A DNA stretch of 64,000 bases from Myrmaecium sp. VS I D KN 1. Taxonomy: Eukaryota; Ascomycota; Dothideomycetes; Valsariales; Valsariaceae. Every line of letters starts with the position of its first letter. Positions within the stretch are counted from its first letter, which is position 1. The position numbers and the translations under genes are program-made. The stretch spans positions 112,271 through 176,270 of the forward strand of contig JADQAV010000045.1 of assembly GCA_019775845.1 (NCBI GenBank), in the 5' to 3' direction. Under the pieces are notes generated by a model. The model ran no database searches. It worked only from the letters and a program-made list of their open reading frames with translations, and was not told the origin of the DNA. Of the stretch, positions 23,480-52,721 are shown piece by piece.

Positions 23480-26369
23480 TCAAGCTCCCATTCCCGGGCT
23501 CACGTCCCGAAGCACGGCAGCGGCAATGGGCGTTGTCCGCTCGGCGAGCGCAGCCGCCATCTCCACCTGCTGAACCATCGGGCTGCCACTGTCCTCGGAC
23601 GATTGCGCCGAGCCTCGGCGGGCTTTCCGGAGCACCTGCGTCAGCTTCGTGATGCTGCTCCAACGCCGTCGCTTGTCCGCACCGCCCACGTCTCCATGCC
23701 CGCTGTCTCGTCTGCAGTTCCCGTCCCCTTCCTCTTCCCCCGCCAGGGGCGGATCGAAGCCCAGGCCCGGCATCCATCCCGTCCCCACGTGACTGTTCCG
23801 CCTGCTGAATCCGGGCCGGCGCTCGTCCCTCGCCGGCTCGATGATCGCCCTCGCGGTGGGGTTCAGGAAGAGCCAAAGGGGGAAGAAAAAGACGCTTCCG
23901 AAGTTGGCTACCGCAACGCATATGGCGTACTGCATCGTGTGCCTCTTGCCCGCGGCGTAGGCGATGGAGGGGAAGACCGTGCTGCTAGATACCGCCGCGG
24001 TGATGAACGCCGCGGCGTCTTTGGTGTGCTTCCCGCAGCCACGTAGACCCATGGCGTAGATCAGGGAGTACATTGGTCCCTCGAAGAAGTAGATCATGAT
24101 GTAAGATGCTGCCGGTGCGGGACCACGGCCAAACAAGGCGGCGATACTGAAAGCAAGGCAGCCGGTGATGAAGAAGACCACTTGATGCAAGGGTTTGCAA
24201 ACGCGCGGGAAGAGAAACAGCGCGAATGCGGAAGAGAGGCGGGAGACAGCGAAAGCAGTGTGACCGAGGGCTTGATAGTCGTCGTCGTTGAGAGCGATCC
24301 CCATCATGTCTCTGAATGAACCTACATGGGTGGAGATGACTTCCTGACCACCGACATACATGCACTGAGCAAAGACTGCGAAGCCCAGTGTAATGTAAGC
24401 AACCGGGATTGAAGTGGTGAGTCTCGGGTGGTCAGGGTCGCTGCTGATGACGAAACGGGTGGTATGAGGAGGCGTGATGCGAGAGGAGAGTTCTTCCAGT
24501 TCTTGATCGGAGGCTTCGGGAAGAGGTACATAGTAGTAGGCGATCGCGAGAAAGTATACGAAGAGGGCTATCCCAAGATAAGTCCACTGCACGTCAATCA
24601 AAGAGCCGTCGTTTTGTGTGAACAGAACCTTCCTCGCGAGCAGCGGTGAGCAGACACCACCGATAGCTTGGATGCCTTGACACAGGTTGAGACGAGCTTC
24701 GGCGTGTTCCATGGGCCCACACAATGCAATGAACGGGTTAGCTGCGACTTCCAGAGTTCCAAGACCGGTGCCGACGATGAAATTGGAGAACAGGAAGGCC
24801 GTGAAAGATGTTAAGACCGCACTCGGCCAGAACGTCAAAGTACCACAGGCGTAAATGACCAAGCCCACGACGAAACACGCTTTGAAACCCCAGCGCTTCA
24901 GCAGGAGACGACCGAATGTGAGAGGGGACACGAAATAGCCAAGGTAGTACATGCAATAGATGCCTAGAGTCTCTGATGGACTCATACGGGCAATGAGCTG
25001 GAAGCGGACATTGAGAATATTTAGCAGGCCGTACGCGAATCCCCATATGAAGAACAGCAAGGTGACCACGATGATCGGAAATATAGACTCCTTGTTCGTC
25101 AAATGTACCAAGCTCTTCGATCCTCTCAGATTTACGAAATCGAAGAAGGTTGGAACCGCAGCCGTGCGAGTGGTGTTGCATGTAGCTCTTATCGGCGTCC
25201 TCTCGATCGTGCCTCCTGAAAGCATGCCCGGGGTCGTCAGGAAATCCATCATGTCCATAGACTCTTCTGTCGCTTGGGTCCCAGATGAATGCTCCGCGGG
25301 AGCTGTATCGCGCCGGCGCTGTGGGGATGCAGGCTCCCCTCCTTGTTCCACAGTGCCCTCCTGCAGTACTGTCCCTGATCCAAGTTCAGGCTCCATAGAC
25401 TCTCCAGGATCGCGCAGTATGTGGGGTAGAAATCGAGAAATCAAGGGCTTAAGGGCAGGAACGCAGGCACACATGATTCCGACGTGCACCTCGACGGCGG
25501 ACCACATGAACGAGAAAGAGGCGTACCACGAGAGATCAGTGACTTCCGAGTTCCGTGAGGCGTTTTTGGAATGTCGGCCATTCTCTTGGACCACCTTCAA
25601 ACGCGCCGCCGCCGCCGATTGGAGGTAGGCGATCCGAACTACATCAACCACGGCAACGAAGACGCCGAAGCTGAAGGTGATGATCAAGATCCGTTTCTGC
25701 TTCTTTGGCAGGCGCATGCTGGTCAAGATGGGCATCGGAAGGAAAAGAATCGCAAGGTCCGTGACGATGTTGACGGGGGCGGAGGAGAGGTATAAAGTCA
25801 CAATGTCCGTACAATGTGCCGTTTGGGGCACTACCCTCTGGAACGCGGCCGACATGGGCCGGCATTGTAGGATAGTGAGTATCGTCAACGCAAGGCCCGC
25901 AACGATTACGATGGTCAACGTGGCGACGGTCGACCATTTGAAGATCTTGCTCGTTCTCGAGAGCGACAGGTAGAAGGTCAAGATAGAAGTCTTGGTGGCA
26001 ATCAATGCAGGATTCTGGACGCGTTAGATGGGCGGATCGAGAGCCGGTGAACAGGAAGCTCACATAAAGGACCGCAAACGCGTATTCTGCTTTCCTCAGG
26101 GTGGGAGACCATTCTTCCGGAACATCTATCTCATGCCGCCCAAGGCCAAACGATACGCCATAGCAGATGGCGAAGGATAGGCCGAATGCAATGAGCCAAG
26201 CCAGGATCATGAAGTAGTCGTCCCAAGCTGCCCTCCTCAAGACGCAGAACCGAGAGATCATGCGGAAGGCGACGAAGACGGTCGAGCACACAAGCATGGC
26301 GATAACCACTGCGAGCACCGCAGGGCCTCGGGTGGGAAAGTCATGGTGGCCGCCGCTGTCGGCAGCCAT
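23480..26369 (-). CDS. Fusion of a fungal rhodopsin-like 7TM domain with a FucP-type MFS transporter
   Basis: Two exons (26369-26064 and 26014-23480) give 947 codons (946 aa). Residues 1-305 form a seven-helix fungal 'rhodopsin'/PTH11-SAT4-like domain: FRMISRF, WDDYFMILAW, a Cys-containing ILQCRPMSAAF, then DLAILFLPMPIL and MWSAVEVHVGIMCACVPALKPL. This family has no retinal-binding lysine requirement and its ligand is unknown. Residues 305-410 are a hydrophilic Ser/Thr/Glu-rich linker. Residues about 410-865 are a complete 12-helix MFS transporter with fucose-permease-family marks: FFIWGFAYGLLN, TGLGTLEVAANPFIALCGP and EARLNLCQGIQAIGG. An 80-residue cytosolic tail ends the protein. The junction lies inside one uninterrupted 845-codon exon, so it is not a mis-joined pair of gene models. 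It may be a sugar transporter with a built-in sensory or assembly domain, which is inference. Confidence 0.85.
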
Positions 26370-37772: not shown

Positions 37773-40007
37773 ATGGCTTCCCGCAGATCAACTCGCCTGC
37801 TAAAGCCGGCACTCTACACCACGGCCGCCGCCGCCGTTGGTGCCGGCGCTCTCTACGTCGCCTACCGCCCGCGCAACGTCCCGGGCTTCGACGAAGCCGC
37901 CGTGCCGCCGCCCTTTTACGGGCCGGACGGCGTGTTCCGCCCGCCCAAGTTCCCGCTGATCAAGTCGAGAGACGAGATGATTGCGGACTTGAAGCGCAGC
38001 GCTGGCCACGTCTCCGGCGCCGTGTCCAAGGCCGCTTCGAGCCTGAGGCAGAAAGTGGGCGGCGCGCCCGACCAGACCGCGGAGGAGGAGCCCTACGACC
38101 TGTTGATTATCGGCGGAGGTGCCACCGGCTCTGGCATCGCCCTCGATGCCGTCACTCGTGGCCTCAAGGTCGCTTTGGTCGAGCGGGACGACTTCTCCTC
38201 CGGAACGAGCAGTAAGAGCACCAAGCTCGTTCACGGCGGTGTTCGTTATCTGGAGAAGGCTTTCAAGGAGCTGGATTACAATCAGTACGCTCGATCCGCA
38301 TCCCCTCGATGGAGCTCGGTGCGCTAACAAAGTCCCAGATACAAGCTGGTCAAGGAGGCCCTTCGTGAGCGGAGGTATTTCTTGGACACCGCTCCTCACC
38401 TGTCCCATTGGCTGCCCATCATGATCCCGGTCGACAAGTGGTACAAAGCTCCCTACTTCTGGGCGGGCACCAAGGTCTACGATATTCTGGCGGGCGCGGA
38501 GAACATCGAGACGTCCTACTTCTTGACGAGGAGCAAGGCCCTGGAGGCCTATCCGATGCTCAAGAAGGACGGGCTCTTCGGTGCTCTGGTCTACTACGAC
38601 GGCGCTCACAACGACTCGCGGATGAACGTTTCGCTTGCTGCAACCGCTGCCGTTTACGGCGCGACCGTCGTCAACCACGTCGAGGTTACCGGGCTCGAGA
38701 AGGGTCCGGACGGCAAGCTCAACGGCGCCCGCGTCAAGGACCGAACCACGGAATATGATGGACGGACACCCGACGTATTCACCATCAAGGCCAAGGGCAT
38801 CATCAATGCCACTGGCCCCTTCACCGACTCGATCCGCAAGTTCGACGACCCCAACGCCCAAGAGATCGTTGCTCCCAGCTCCGGCGTCCACATCATCCTC
38901 CCCGGCTACTTCAGCCCCTCGAACATGGGTCTGATTGACCCCCAGACATCCGATGGCCGTGTCATCTTCTTCCTGCCATGGCAAGGGAACACGATCGCCG
39001 GTACAACGGACGCACCGACCGAGATCAAGCAGAACCCCGTGGCTGGTGAGGACGAGATCAATTGGATTCTGAGCGAGATCAAGGGTTACCTGCAGCCCGG
39101 CATCGAGATTCGCCGCGGCGACGTCCTCGCAGCGTGGTCTGGCATTCGCCCTCTGGTCCGCGACCCGAAAGCGAAGAAGACCGAGGGTCTTGTCCGGAAC
39201 CACCTGGTCACCACCTCGGAGTCCGGTCTGATCACATGCTCCGGTGGTAAATGGACGACTTACCGCCAGATGGCTGAGGATACCGTGGATGAGGCCATCA
39301 AGCAGTTCGGTCTTGTACCCAAGCCTCTGACGAACCCTCCCCTTGTCAGTGGATTCGAGACCGTCCAGGACGAGGCTCCGCTGGATGGCGCGTGCCAAAC
39401 CCACCGGGTGCGCCTCGTGGGAGCTCACGGCTACTCCAAGACCCTCTTCATCAACCTCATCCAGCATTACGGACTCGAGACCGAGGTGGCCCAGTACCTG
39501 GCCACCGCGTACGGTGACCGCGCCTGGACCGTCGCCGCTCTCTGCCAGCCTCTCGGCCAGCGCTACCCGGTCCGCGGCAAGCGCATCTCGCAACTCTACC
39601 CCTACGTCGACGGCGAAGTCCGCTACGCGTGCCGGCACGAGTTTGCGCAGCGGGCCACCGATGTGCTCGCCCGCCGGATGCGTCTCGCCTTCCTGAACGC
39701 GCAAGCGGCGCTTGAGTCTCTTCCCCAGGTTATCGACCTGATGGCGGAGGAGCTCCACTGGGACTCCAAGCGCAAGGAGACCGAGTGGCGGGACGCCGTC
39801 ACGTTCCTGGGCAGCATGGGCCTGCCCAAGGGCCAGCTGAGCATCACCCGCAAGGAGGTCGAGAGCGGCTACCTGAACAAGTTCATCGACGAGAAGTACG
39901 ACCTGTACGCCCGCCACGACCCCGCCGCCGAGACCCTCGAGTCCGACTCCAAGTACCCCCCCGGCCACAATCCGGTCGAGGGCAAGGATTCCGCTGCCAA
40001 CAAGTAA
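37773..40007 (+). CDS. gut2: Mitochondrial FAD-dependent glycerol-3-phosphate dehydrogenase
   Basis: Exons 37773-38284 and 38339-40007 give 727 codons (726 aa). The N-terminus ([15 protein letters not shown]) is a basic presequence followed by a hydrophobic anchor ([16 protein letters not shown]), placing the enzyme at the inner membrane. The FAD fold begins at [17 protein letters not shown] near residue 110, followed by the family signature [17 protein letters not shown]. Later marks are [42 protein letters not shown] and [20 protein letters not shown]. The helical C-terminal domain ([19 protein letters not shown]) is present. It oxidises glycerol-3-phosphate to dihydroxyacetone phosphate, feeding electrons to ubiquinone, and is needed for growth on glycerol. 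Strong codon bias creates a long antisense frame. Identity is secure. Confidence 0.96.
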
Positions 40008-40560
40008 ATCTTCGTTTCGACCACACCCCCCACCTTGCTTTCTTGTTGAACGGGATCGGACCGCACCGCACCGGGACCCGCCACATCCCGCCTTTCCCGC
40101 CTTTCCCGCATCGCGATCATCATCACCATCACCATCACCACCGCCACCCATCCATCTTGTATAATATCCGTATCGTCACCATACCCGACCGACCGACCGG
40201 CAGACTCATCCCTCCTCCATGGGCGCTCGCTGTTTCCTCTTCCTTCCGGTTTCGCTTATTTGTTATCTCATATCCTTTTCACCTCTTGTTATTTCGGGGG
40301 GTTGACGTCGATGGTCCTACTAGGCGACGATGAAGAAAAGGGGACGGGGGCCTACAGAGGCGAGATGATGGCAATAGACCTGCCACATTCTATTATCCGT
40401 GTTTTCTTTGGGTCTTTTATTCCGAAAAGTTTGCTCTCGTCCTTGCGGACGACGTCCTTCCTTCATCACGAAGAAAACCGAGGGACATGCGAAAAAAACA
40501 GAAAGGAACGGCATAGAGAAAGGGTGATGTGTAGACAAAAGTGGCATGCCCTGGCATGCA

Positions 40561-41529: not shown

Positions 41530-43492
41530 CTACGACGACTGGAGCGCCGCCTGCTTGACGCCCTCGGTCACCTCGGCCACCGCGTCCTTCTCGCTGCTGA
41601 GCGCCTCCCGACCGCCCTTCTCCACCGTCTCCACGCTCTCACCCTTCGCCGCCGCCTTCTTTTCCTTCTTCTTCTGCTTGGCGGCCTTCTTTGCGGCGGC
41701 CTTGGCGGCCGCCTCCTCCTTCGCGCGCCTGGCCTCCTCGCCGCCGAACATCTCACGCCACTCCTGCTCCCGCTCCGGCTTGATGGCGCTGAACAGGTAT
41801 TCGGCCTGGCCGATGGTATGACCGGGCTTGACGCTGTCGGCGTTCCACTCATCCGGGATGGTCAGCGCGGGCAGGTTGAGCTGCTTGTAGATGCTTTCGG
41901 CAGTAGCGGGAAGGTAGGGGGCGATAAGGGCGGCCAAGAGGTGGATGTGGTTGAGTGCGATGCCGACGACGGCGGCGCACTTTTCGGGCTGTTCGGTGGC
42001 AAGCTTGTTGTCGATCTTGTTGTCCTGGAGAAGCTTGTTGCCCAGGCTCGAAACTGCAGGAGTGTGAGTATAGGACCATGGCTTGAGTAGGGAGATACGT
42101 ACCCCTGATGGCAGTCTGAAGAGCCGCCTTAAGCTTCACGTTGTCAAGCTCATCTATATATTGCTTGAGCGCCTCATTGACCTCCTTCTTGTGTTCCTCG
42201 AAATAGGAGTCGGTGTATTGCGTGTAGTCCGGAACGACACTGTTGTAGACCTTGGAGTTGACAAATTTGACAACACGGTTAACGAAATTGCCGAGATTCT
42301 TGAGCAGGACGTTGTTGTTCGAGTCGATGAAACTTGTCCACTCGAATTCAGAATCACCGGTCTCCGGTCTGTGCGAGAGAAGATAGTATCTCCAGACATC
42401 GGATGGAATGCCGGTCTCCTTCGCGTTCGTGCCAAAGACACCGATGCCTCGGGACTTGGAGAACTTGCCCTTTTCGTAATTCAAGTACTCCGTGGTGGAA
42501 AGATGGTGGAGCTGAGTCCACCTGTCACCACTGCCGATTTGAGAGCTGGGGAAGACGACTGTATGGAAAGGGACGTTGTCCTTGCCCATGAACTGATAGA
42601 GTTTGACCTGCTCAGGGTTCTTCCACCATTTCTCCCACTGGTCGGTGTAGCAGGCAGTCATGGAGACGTATCCGATACAGGCATCAAACCACACGTACAG
42701 CACCTTGTCATCGTAACCCGGCAGAGGGACTTTAGTGCCCCACTTGAGGTCACGGGTGATGCCACGCGGCTTCAGGCCCTCCTTCAACCAAGACTCGGTG
42801 ATGTGAATGCCGTTGGCCGACCACTTGCCCTCCCTGGAAGATTTCCTCGCCCACTCCTCCACCGACGCCTGGAGTTTGTCCAAGAGCAAGAAGACGTGCT
42901 TGGTCTCCTTCGGGACGGGCGTGGCACCGTCGAGCTTGCAGCGGGGCTTGATGAGCTCGAGCGGGTCGAGGAGGTGACCGCACTTGTCGCATTGATCGCC
43001 ACGGGCATCGACGTAGTGGCAGAGCGGGCACTCGCCCTCGACGAAGCGGTCGGCCAAGAAGGACTTGTGCTGCTCGCAGTAGGGCTGGATGGTAGTCTGC
43101 TCCTCCAGATAGCCGTTCTTGTACAGTTTTGTGAAGATGTCCTGGGCGATGTCGGTCTGCTGCTGGGTCGGGGTGCGGCCGAAGTAGTCGAACTTGATGT
43201 TGAACCAGTCGTACACCTGCTTGTGAATGGCCCAGTACTTGTCGCAGAGCTCCTGCGGGGTGAGGCCCTCCTCGATGGCCTTGGTCTCGGTCGCGGTGCC
43301 GTACTCGTCCGTGCCGCATACGAAGAAGGCCTGGTAATCGCGACCCTTGCAGTACCGGGAGAAGACGTCGGCGGACAGAACGGAGCCGATGACATTCCCG
43401 AGGTGGGGCACGTTGTTGACGTAGGGAAGAGCGCTGGTGATGAGGATGTTCCGTTTGCCCTCCTTGGGCAGGATCTTGTCGGAGTCCGCCAT
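41530..43492 (-). CDS. Cytosolic methionyl-tRNA synthetase
   Basis: Exons 43492-42103 and 42053-41530 give 638 codons (637 aa). The protein starts close to the catalytic core (ILITSALPYVNNVPHLGN, the HIGH-type motif). The connective peptide has a zinc knuckle pattern (CPLCHYVDARGDQCDKC). The class-I WFDACIGYVS segment, the KMSKS-type motif KFSKSRG and the alpha-helical anticodon-binding domain follow. The C-terminal 70 residues are Lys/Ala/Glu-rich (AKKAAKQKKKEKKAA), a basic helical tail likely to aid tRNA binding. The GST-like N-terminal extension of yeast Mes1, which binds Arc1, is absent. It charges tRNA-Met in the cytosol. The gene is divergent from lto1 with 395 bp between start codons. 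Confidence 0.95.
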
Positions 43493-43540
43493 GGTGAGGT
43501 GGTGACGAACGCGGAGGAAGCGGAGAGGGGAGGTGGGGGA

Positions 43541-43607
43541 GGAAGAAGAAGAGGAGGAGGAGGAGGAGGAGGAGGAAGAAGAAGAAGAAGAAGAAGAAGA
43601 AGAAGAG
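43541..43607. repeat. GAA/GGA trinucleotide microsatellite in the metRS leader
   Basis: About 66 bp of GAA and GGA units on the plus strand (TTC/TCC in the metRS mRNA sense). It would read as poly-Ser in frame with MetRS, but no ATG precedes it, so it is treated as leader sequence. Confidence 0.85.
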
Positions 43608-43660
43608 TGGAGGAAGTAAGCAGAGTGCAAAGAAGAACCTAAGGCTTGAAGTTCTTGAGT

Positions 43661-43667
43661 TGAGTCA
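43661..43667. promoter_or_regulatory. Gcn4/CpcA binding site TGAGTCA
   Basis: A perfect TGAGTCA lies 169 bp upstream of the MetRS ATG and 221 bp upstream of the lto1 ATG. Gcn4-type bZIP factors (CpcA in filamentous fungi) use this sequence, and aminoacyl-tRNA synthetase genes are established targets of amino-acid-starvation control. Binding here is inferred. Confidence 0.6.
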
Positions 43668-43887
43668 AACGTTGGTCGGAATCCCTTGCCTGCTCGAAAA
43701 TGTGGCGGTGGCTCGTGCACTGGCGGGGTAAGTTAGGTATTGCGAATGATCGTCTCCCATCCCGCTAACAACAAAAAAACTCGCCGCCGCGGTCATCGTC
43801 GGGCACTACTCCCGCGTACTCCGACCGCGTGCAGCATTCGCCAACATCACCGCCTCCTCCACCTCCACTCGAAGCCTCTCCCTCACA

Positions 43888-50698: not shown

Positions 50699-51916
50699 TC
50701 AAAACATGCCGCCTTCGTACGCGCCGGGTTGTTCGTCGTCATGCCCTTTGGACCCGCCATGCCCCCTCTTTTTCCAGCTGAGCTTGCTGCTGACCCTCTT
50801 CCACTGATGTGCGGTCGCGGTTGCGAATCCCGTGCCGTGTTCCGCTCGATGATTCCGCGGGCTCGGTGTGCTACCCGTGCTACCGTGCGCGGCAGGCTGG
50901 CCAAACCCGTATTGGACCTCGGTCATCGGCGGTGTGTTTGGTGGTGTCATGGGATCATCGAGCGCGGAAGGGCTGCTCGTGCTACCTGAATCGTCCGTCA
51001 GAGCATCGCTTCCGCTCGCGCTGCCGCCGCTGCTATAGCTGTTCTGGGGGATTCGGGACGTTGAGGTCGCAGCCGGGCCAGAAGCAAACCGCGCATGTGC
51101 TGCTGCTGAATGAAGCGAACGCGAAAATGGAGAGGTCAAGCTCGAGGGGGCTGAAGCCCGATGCGGTGCCGAAGAAGACATGATCGGAGCCGGGGAGGTG
51201 AACGAGTGATATCCGCCAGCATGGTCGTTGAGCGAAGTGGTGTGCTGGAGATTCTCTTCGCTTGTACTGTATGTCGCCTCACTAGCACTCTGCGGACACA
51301 CGCTGTTCAAAAAGGGTACCAAGACTGATTCTTCCATCAACTCGTAAATCTTCGAAACAGCGGTATCCAGGGTCGACGGGTGTGGTGGGACCTCTGCATT
51401 AGCCATCGAGAGCAGGTTGTCACGCACATCACACGGAAGGTTGACTTCGCGCGGGCCATTTGGTGCGATGTATGCCTCGAGCAGCCTCTGCCACAGCATC
51501 TTGACATATTCGCATTCTTCCGTGCCAGGTGTGATGGGATTTTCGGAGCCACGGCTGGCGATCTTGTTATAGTGCTTACGATAACGCGAGGCATCCATGG
51601 TAAACTCCAGAGTTTCCAGGCAGTGATTCTGGGAGAGATACGCCATGAAAGCGCTCAATGTCCACGGAGGGGGCGACTGATTCGCCAAGATTTCCGAGAG
51701 GTTCGGTCGTCGAGGGCAGTATGGCCCTTGTATCGGAGCATACCCCCGCGGAATGGATACCGTGAGCGGTCTCGAGGGAACGTAGTCCTGCATTTGGATC
51801 GTCTTTTCCTCGTCTTCCGATACTTCGTGTACCGAGTCGGAGCCCCGAGAAGACGGGTCTGGTGGTTGGCCTTGTAACGTCACGACGGAGGGAGGTGAGT
51901 GTTTTCGCGGGCTCAT
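50699..51916 (-). CDS. rgsA: RGS-domain regulator of heterotrimeric G-protein signalling (RgsA-type)
   Basis: A single open frame of 406 codons (405 aa) beginning at the first ATG in frame (MSPRKHSPPSV). The RGS domain covers about residues 60-220: NLSEILANQSPPPWTLSAFM, then SQNHCLETLEFTMDASRYRK, MLWQRLLEAYIAPNGPREVN and TAVSKIYELMEESVLVPFLN. The remaining half is Ser/Thr/Pro-rich, low complexity and probably disordered. It ends in a basic segment (WKRVSSKLSWKKRG). In A. nidulans, RgsA accelerates GTP hydrolysis by the G-alpha GanB and so tunes asexual sporulation and stress responses. Assignment to RgsA rather than another fungal RGS class rests on the compact single-RGS layout without DEP or membrane domains. 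An unseen 5' exon cannot be excluded. Confidence 0.82.
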   Translation of the reverse strand: MSPRKHSPPSVVTLQGQPPDPSSRGSDSVHEVSEDEEKTIQMQDYVPSRPLTVSIPRGYAPIQGPYCPRRPNLSEILANQSPPPWTLSAFMAYLSQNHCLETLEFTMDASRYRKHYNKIASRGSENPITPGTEECEYVKMLWQRLLEAYIAPNGPREVNLPCDVRDNLLSMANAEVPPHPSTLDTAVSKIYELMEESVLVPFLNSVCPQSASEATYSTSEENLQHTTSLNDHAGGYHSFTSPAPIMSSSAPHRASAPSSLTSPFSRSLHSAAAHARFASGPAATSTSRIPQNSYSSGGSASGSDALTDDSGSTSSPSALDDPMTPPNTPPMTEVQYGFGQPAAHGSTGSTPSPRNHRAEHGTGFATATAHQWKRVSSKLSWKKRGHGGSKGHDDEQPGAYEGGMF

Positions 51917-52721
51917 TACCAGCTTCCACAACCCCTTGTGTGTCGTCCTCTCGCACTTCTCGGCACCGGGGCAGGAACAGAGTGGAGAGGGCCGCGGACG
52001 ACGATGATGATGCGCCAGCTTGACGAGAGGTAATTATACCGATACCCGAAAGGTGAAACAAGGCGGTGGAATATATATACCAAGTCGAATCAGGAAGGTG
52101 ACCGTTATCGCGACATCTGCAGGCGCCTTCGATTCGCACTCGGAAGTGTTGGGAGACGCCGTCAGTACAGAAACTGCATGCGAGGTGCAGGCGTGGTGTT
52201 CGCTAGCACGATGCTCGATGCTGTGCAGCTTCTGGAACCGCCCGACGAAAAGATCGAGTCGCACCGTGATGCGTACAAGGAAGGCCGACGGTCAAGATCC
52301 GATCCTTTGACCTGGCCCTGAAGTGACACTTCGCGCCGAGCGTGTGGAACGATGCAGCTGCAGGCCGACGCTGGAAGGTGAGCGATGTGGAAAAGGTGCC
52401 AGGAAGCGGGCGGAAGGCGGGGAGCGGATGATGAGCCACCGAGGACGGTATTACGAAGGCGGCAGTCAGTTGGACAAGATTGGAACGAGTGTAAGACCGA
52501 GGGACGAAGCCGAGGTGTGGTAAATAACGGCGAGGGAGAATGCGGATGGCGGAGGAGGATGAGATGGTGCGCCGACCGAGAAGGCAGAGGAGGCGGCTTC
52601 GTTTGAGGATGACAGAGGATGGATTGAGGAGGGAGCCGGACACAACTGAGTTTGACAGGATGGAGTAAGCAAGGTCAGGTTCCACTGCTTGTGTCAGAGC
52701 AAGAGGAGACAGGGAGGAGTG

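Follow-up and report, generated by a model that had tools for sequence, protein, structure and literature searches.

Can a single fungal polypeptide join a receptor-like domain with seven transmembrane helices (7TM) to a complete sugar carrier, and what would such a protein do? The question is raised by a gene of Myrmaecium sp. VS I D KN 1 located in a stretch of 64,000 nucleotides, which is called the window below. The two families concerned, Fung_rhodopsin and the FucP-like transporters of the MFS, are both known. The original prediction had described a 7TM domain and a FucP-type transporter fused in this order within an uninterrupted frame, and had proposed a profile search of both halves. 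This search confirmed the two domains and their order: in one and the same frame, both exceed their Pfam cut-offs, with 197.2 bits for PF20684 (cut-off 27) and 56.1 bits for PF07690 (cut-off 33.4).

Gene model and domain content

Splice modelling of this minus-strand gene gives a product of 946 amino acids from a two-exon frame (Table 1). The start of exon 1 is the sole Met in its open frame and has a fair start context. Several frame-keeping GT/GC-AG pairs were listed for the intron (26063-26015), and only the retained one combines a strong donor with a branch-like site. The whole 946-residue frame contains two intact domains and no internal stop. The Pfam scan of the spliced protein (E <= 1) returned PF20684 and PF07690 and no other family, hence no CFEM domain. 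A Kyte-Doolittle profile of the 946 residues has 18 peaks above 1.1 (19-residue windows). The count of 7 + 12 helices is based on these peaks, on the FucP alignment and on the model of the transporter half; a manual list had 13 transporter segments, two of which (672-690 and 694-710) form one helix according to the FucP alignment.

Table 1. Position in the window of the predicted gene, its domains and individual carrier residues.
Feature	Position	Strand	Description
Exon 1	26064..26369	-	102 codons; short N-terminus, 7TM helices 1-2, start of helix 3
Predicted intron	26015..26063	-	49 nt, GTGAGC...CTAAC...CCAG, phase 0; sequence-based
Exon 2	23480..26014	-	844 codons + stop; remaining 7TM domain, linker, transporter, C-terminal tail
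Fung_rhodopsin (PF20684)	25433..26267	-	aa 35-296, intron-interrupted; Pfam
Linker	25088..25432	-	aa 297-411, about 115 residues, hydrophilic, predicted disordered; without stop
FucP-like 12-helix MFS transporter	23861..25087	-	aa 412-820; Pfam, phmmer, NCBIfam, model, Foldseek
Asn434	25019..25021	-	aligned without gaps to Asp46, the proton site in E. coli FucP
Glu524	24749..24751	-	equivalent of FucP Glu135, conserved
Glu660	24341..24343	-	transporter helix 7; possible substitute carboxylate; alignment
Hydrophilic C-terminal tail	23483..23860	-	aa 821-946; RRxS motifs at aa 840, 870, 885, 901

In the spliced protein, the 7TM half matches the entire PF20684 model (positions 1-237 of 237, E 3.9e-58), and exon 1 alone already matches positions 1-62 (E 2.6e-08). 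The Fung_rhodopsin and Pth11-like labels are taken here to designate the same proteins. A retinal-binding opsin was considered and set aside, the Pfam match being to Fung_rhodopsin, a family that is not known to bind retinal. The short loops 1-2, 3-4 and 5-6 each contain three Lys or Arg and no Asp or Glu, and an N-A-S sequon is found in the loop preceding 7TM helix 7. These positive-inside counts suggest that the N-terminus of the domain is outside and its C-terminus cytosolic. As MFS carriers begin in the cytosol, the join would then need no extra helix. The 7TM half was modelled at low confidence, so that no contact with the carrier can be read from the model. Searching for Fung_rhodopsin in two bacterial and 14 control genomes gave no match, which does not prove absence, and no relative was found in the viral contigs scanned with the 7TM half.

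The second half matches PF07690 (MFS_1) over aa 421-778 (E 3.9e-15). A phmmer search of the PDB with the protein encoded by exon 2 (E <= 0.1) retrieved two distinct sequences, both of E. coli FucP (3o7q, 1.1e-25; 3o7p, 2e-25). The fucP equivalog of NCBIfam (TIGR00885) scores 126.4 bits, far below its cut-off of 280.4, a second fucP model (NF007524) scores 100.4 for a cut-off of 427, and the NagP and gluP models also match below their cut-offs. Since all NCBIfam matches stay under their thresholds, we speak of a FucP-like (FHS) carrier and not of a confirmed L-fucose permease. For comparison, 80 loci were kept after a genome-contig scan and alignment with FucP; all are bacterial and inform the carrier half only. 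A genome-contig scan with a fungal-style carrier segment gave 23 pattern matches and no relative, and no relative was found in viral contigs scanned with the exon 2 product. The carrier model, built with an alignment of 56 of these 80 bacterial relatives, is a 12-helix MFS fold (mean pLDDT 87.6, pTM 0.88). Foldseek placed 3o7p first and 3o7q second among 440 matches at E <= 0.001, with TM scores by query length of 0.74 and 0.75, respectively. In the alignment, the equivalents of FucP Trp38, Glu135, Asn139, Gln159 and Tyr365 are conserved. The carrier is thus a member of the FHS/FucP-like transporters: its nearest sequence and fold are those of FucP, and the pocket residues are conserved.

Among 20 neighbouring frames scanned with Pfam, matches include the housekeeping families Rad52, Peptidase_S10, ABC1, methionyl-tRNA synthetase and SOG2 as well as an RGS protein; no sugar-catabolism cluster was found among these frames. 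The gene of the RGS-domain protein (50702-52033, minus strand; PF00615, E 4.7e-12) belongs to G-protein signalling and lies about 24 kb away, probably by coincidence. Bacterial promoter and terminator patterns in the window were disregarded as uninformative for a fungus.

The linker and the number of products

The linker, announced as 105 residues, measures about 115 from the end of the Pfam domain to transporter helix 1. It is coil in the structure model, with pLDDT of about 27-44. In the proposed frame, its first half is stop-free and contains 72% of disorder-type residues. Windows both stop-free and as disorder-rich were obtained in 21 out of 5274 overlapping windows of the flanks (three stretches assumed to be noncoding) and in none of 1190 off-frame domain windows. 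Stop-free windows as such are not rare in the flanks (16% for a length of 58 codons and 2.4% for 114), so the open frame alone is weak proof of the join. Long frames readily stay open in this window, as two of them, 37800-40175 (minus strand) and 42074-43642 (plus strand), are antisense to frames matching known Pfam families, at 38328-40007 (plus strand; glycerol-3-phosphate-oxidase-like) and 41849-43732 (minus strand; methionyl-tRNA-synthetase). The earlier statement that the join is not a gene-model error was correct about the absence of stops but too strong in its conclusion, because the open frame may be due to chance.

The two antisense frames were dropped from the training of our codon model, which used the other 8 out of 10 long frames; these frames extend between stop codons and could contain some intronic or untranslated sequence. 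The two halves of the linker score -0.052 and -0.043, values that are low but within the in-frame range (5-95%: -0.129 to 0.258). For the first half, the +1 frame scores 0.084, above the proposed frame. The GC3 of codons 301-350 (0.48) is the minimum of the gene. The linker looks like coded disordered protein, and its codon statistics are ambiguous. Scanning it for introns gave no strong candidate, whereas the same scan recovers the 49-nt intron. An intron inside the linker was accordingly set aside; two further candidates begin within the transporter, at 24720. We also observed an exact 12-base direct repeat (25254-25265 and 25392-25403, 138 bases apart) that spans the first half of the linker. 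One copy contains the in-frame codon of Met309 and the other that of Met355; the repeat may be due to chance.

Two rival explanations bear on the join. The transporter could come from an internal transcript starting at Met355, Met357 or Met358, the long frame being read seldom or never. The linker has in-frame Met codons at aa 309, 355, 357, 358 and 366; the three candidate starts lie about 55 residues upstream of transporter helix 1, and Met357 and Met358 are in a fair start context. Such a pair of products would also agree with the frequency of 58-codon open stretches in the flanks, with the better codon score of the linker first half in another frame and with the existence of stand-alone fungal FucP-domain transporters (PMC5161314). 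However, no stop separates the 7TM part from the transporter, no intron candidate would supply one, and the composition of the linker in the proposed frame is that of disordered protein; two separate products therefore seem unlikely to us. Far less probable still is an artefact or decay, in which a sequence error or a recent frame change in the linker would have merged neighbouring genes. The +1 frame of the linker first half is stop-free and ends at a stop right at Met355, and the direct repeat spans this same segment, which would fit such a merger. On the other hand, the +1 reading has 37% of order-type residues vs. 11% in the proposed frame and is unlike a membrane-protein tail, and both domains are intact. 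The single-protein reading is favoured by a linker that offers no intron candidate and has a disordered, coding-like character, and by the predicted topology, which fits. A single product from the 946-residue frame, whether it works as a sensor or facilitator of sugar or as the H+-coupled importer considered below, is probable.

The proton site and the C-terminal tail

The fungal carrier and E. coli FucP, an L-fucose:H+ symporter, share about 22% identity, including Trp38, Glu135, Gln159 and Tyr365. They differ at two positions of interest, where Asp46 is replaced by Asn434 and Asn162 by Gln551. Asp46 of FucP is listed as a putative H+ site (PMC4882079). At this position, 73 of the 80 bacterial relatives have Asp; the other seven have Ser (3), Pro (2), Gly (1) or Asn (1). 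The Asp46-equivalent residue was not part of the scan patterns that collected these loci. The six rows with Ser, Pro or Gly visibly differ in the motif around this place, while the row with Asn keeps the common motif. The latter is a FucP-like carrier from a Parabacteroides MAG record (L062, 2001-3143), the sole one with Asn among the 80 loci. At the place of Gln551, all 80 relatives have Asn. More generally, the carrier matches 53 of the 101 columns conserved at >=90% in a set of 57 rows (56 of the 80 bacterial loci plus E. coli FucP), and Asn434 is one of the 48 departures. The Asp-to-Asn change at the FucP proton site is new in this analysis, as are the motifs of the tail described below.

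This change suggests a carrier working without H+ coupling. The FucP-type H+ symporter originally predicted is therefore retained for its FucP-like character and not for its coupling, given a score of less than half the equivalog cut-off and the loss of the Asp46 carboxylate. The fused protein could nevertheless be an ordinary H+-coupled sugar importer, in which Glu660 or Glu524 would take the proton and the 7TM half would aid trafficking or anchoring. Glu524 is conserved, and Glu660 brings a charge that is absent from the aligned relatives (57 rows), so that it might act as a replacement proton carboxylate. Transport by a protein of this type is also documented, RhtA, a stand-alone FucP-domain protein of Aspergillus niger, transporting L-rhamnose (PMC5161314). 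Nevertheless, Asp46 is the accepted H+ site of FucP and is retained in most relatives, and the presence of a complete receptor-like 7TM domain would remain unexplained. Such an importer is a doubtful reading, slightly less so than two separate products.

The C-terminal tail has four R-R-x-S motifs in its last 121 residues, for 0.28 expected; at least four were obtained in 5e-5 of 20000 shuffles of the tail, a figure that serves as a pointer only, the motif having been picked after inspection of the tail. Elsewhere, one such motif is found in the linker (RRDT, aa 336; 0.127, not unusual) and none in the remaining parts. Codon statistics in the tail favour the coding frame. R-R-x-S is the PKA consensus, and the tail could be phosphorylated by PKA-type kinases.

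Possible working and known systems

We propose one 946-residue membrane protein consisting of a Pth11-like/Fung_rhodopsin 7TM domain, a cytosolic disordered tether, a FucP-like (FHS) carrier and a cytosolic tail. In its simplest use, the tether would keep a sensor and an effector adjacent at a one-to-one ratio. The carrier would bind a monosaccharide or a deoxy sugar and cycle without the usual Asp46 proton step. Lacking this residue, it might either bind and release the sugar or pass it downhill, and in doing so report its own state. The recipient could be either the 7TM domain or the tail, itself a possible substrate of PKA-type kinases. Our main reading, with a probability of about 0.4, is a 7TM domain and a carrier tethered to each other, the carrier acting as a sensor or facilitator of sugar without H+ symport. 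The fusion is better supported than this sensing or facilitative function, which is inferred. The transceptor reading is compatible with Asn434 and with the motifs of the tail, which do not show it. The most specific version, a single-chain sugar receptor in which a Pth11-like 7TM domain is tethered to a FucP-type carrier devoid of Asp46 and followed by a PKA-regulated tail, is speculative and rather unlikely as a whole.

Each part of the tethered pair has known counterparts. RhtA of A. niger is, like the carrier of the fusion, a fungal sugar carrier of the FHS family (TC 2.A.1.7) with a FucP domain, a domain well represented in fungi; unlike for the fusion, no 7TM domain is described in the available part of that source (PMC5161314). 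Since RhtA carries L-rhamnose, pectin sugars are sensible first candidate ligands for the fusion carrier. Pth11-like proteins (class 14) are the most abundant class of fungal GPCRs (29.6%) and, in the available part of the source, are reported in Pezizomycotina only (PMC12842992). CFEM is present in 4.1% of them, so the fusion protein, without CFEM, resembles most of the class; in contrast to what is found here, fusion to a transporter is not mentioned in that part of the source (PMC12842992). Yeast nutrient transceptors such as Pho84 share the idea of a signalling carrier, but both roles are held there by one carrier, whereas the fusion adds a separate 7TM domain (PMC3824880). GprK-type hybrid GPCRs likewise join a fungal 7TM receptor to another functional domain, which is a soluble RGS domain instead of a membrane carrier (PMC5008803). 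Among the matches listed from the open-licence PMC literature, none describes a fusion of Fung_rhodopsin or another 7TM domain with an MFS carrier.

If the fusion of a Pth11-like protein with a sugar carrier is indeed natural, the partner would be a direct clue to what this member of the family works with. If true, a carrier devoid of Asp46 beside a receptor-like domain would also be a natural test case for the conversion of a transporter into a sensor.
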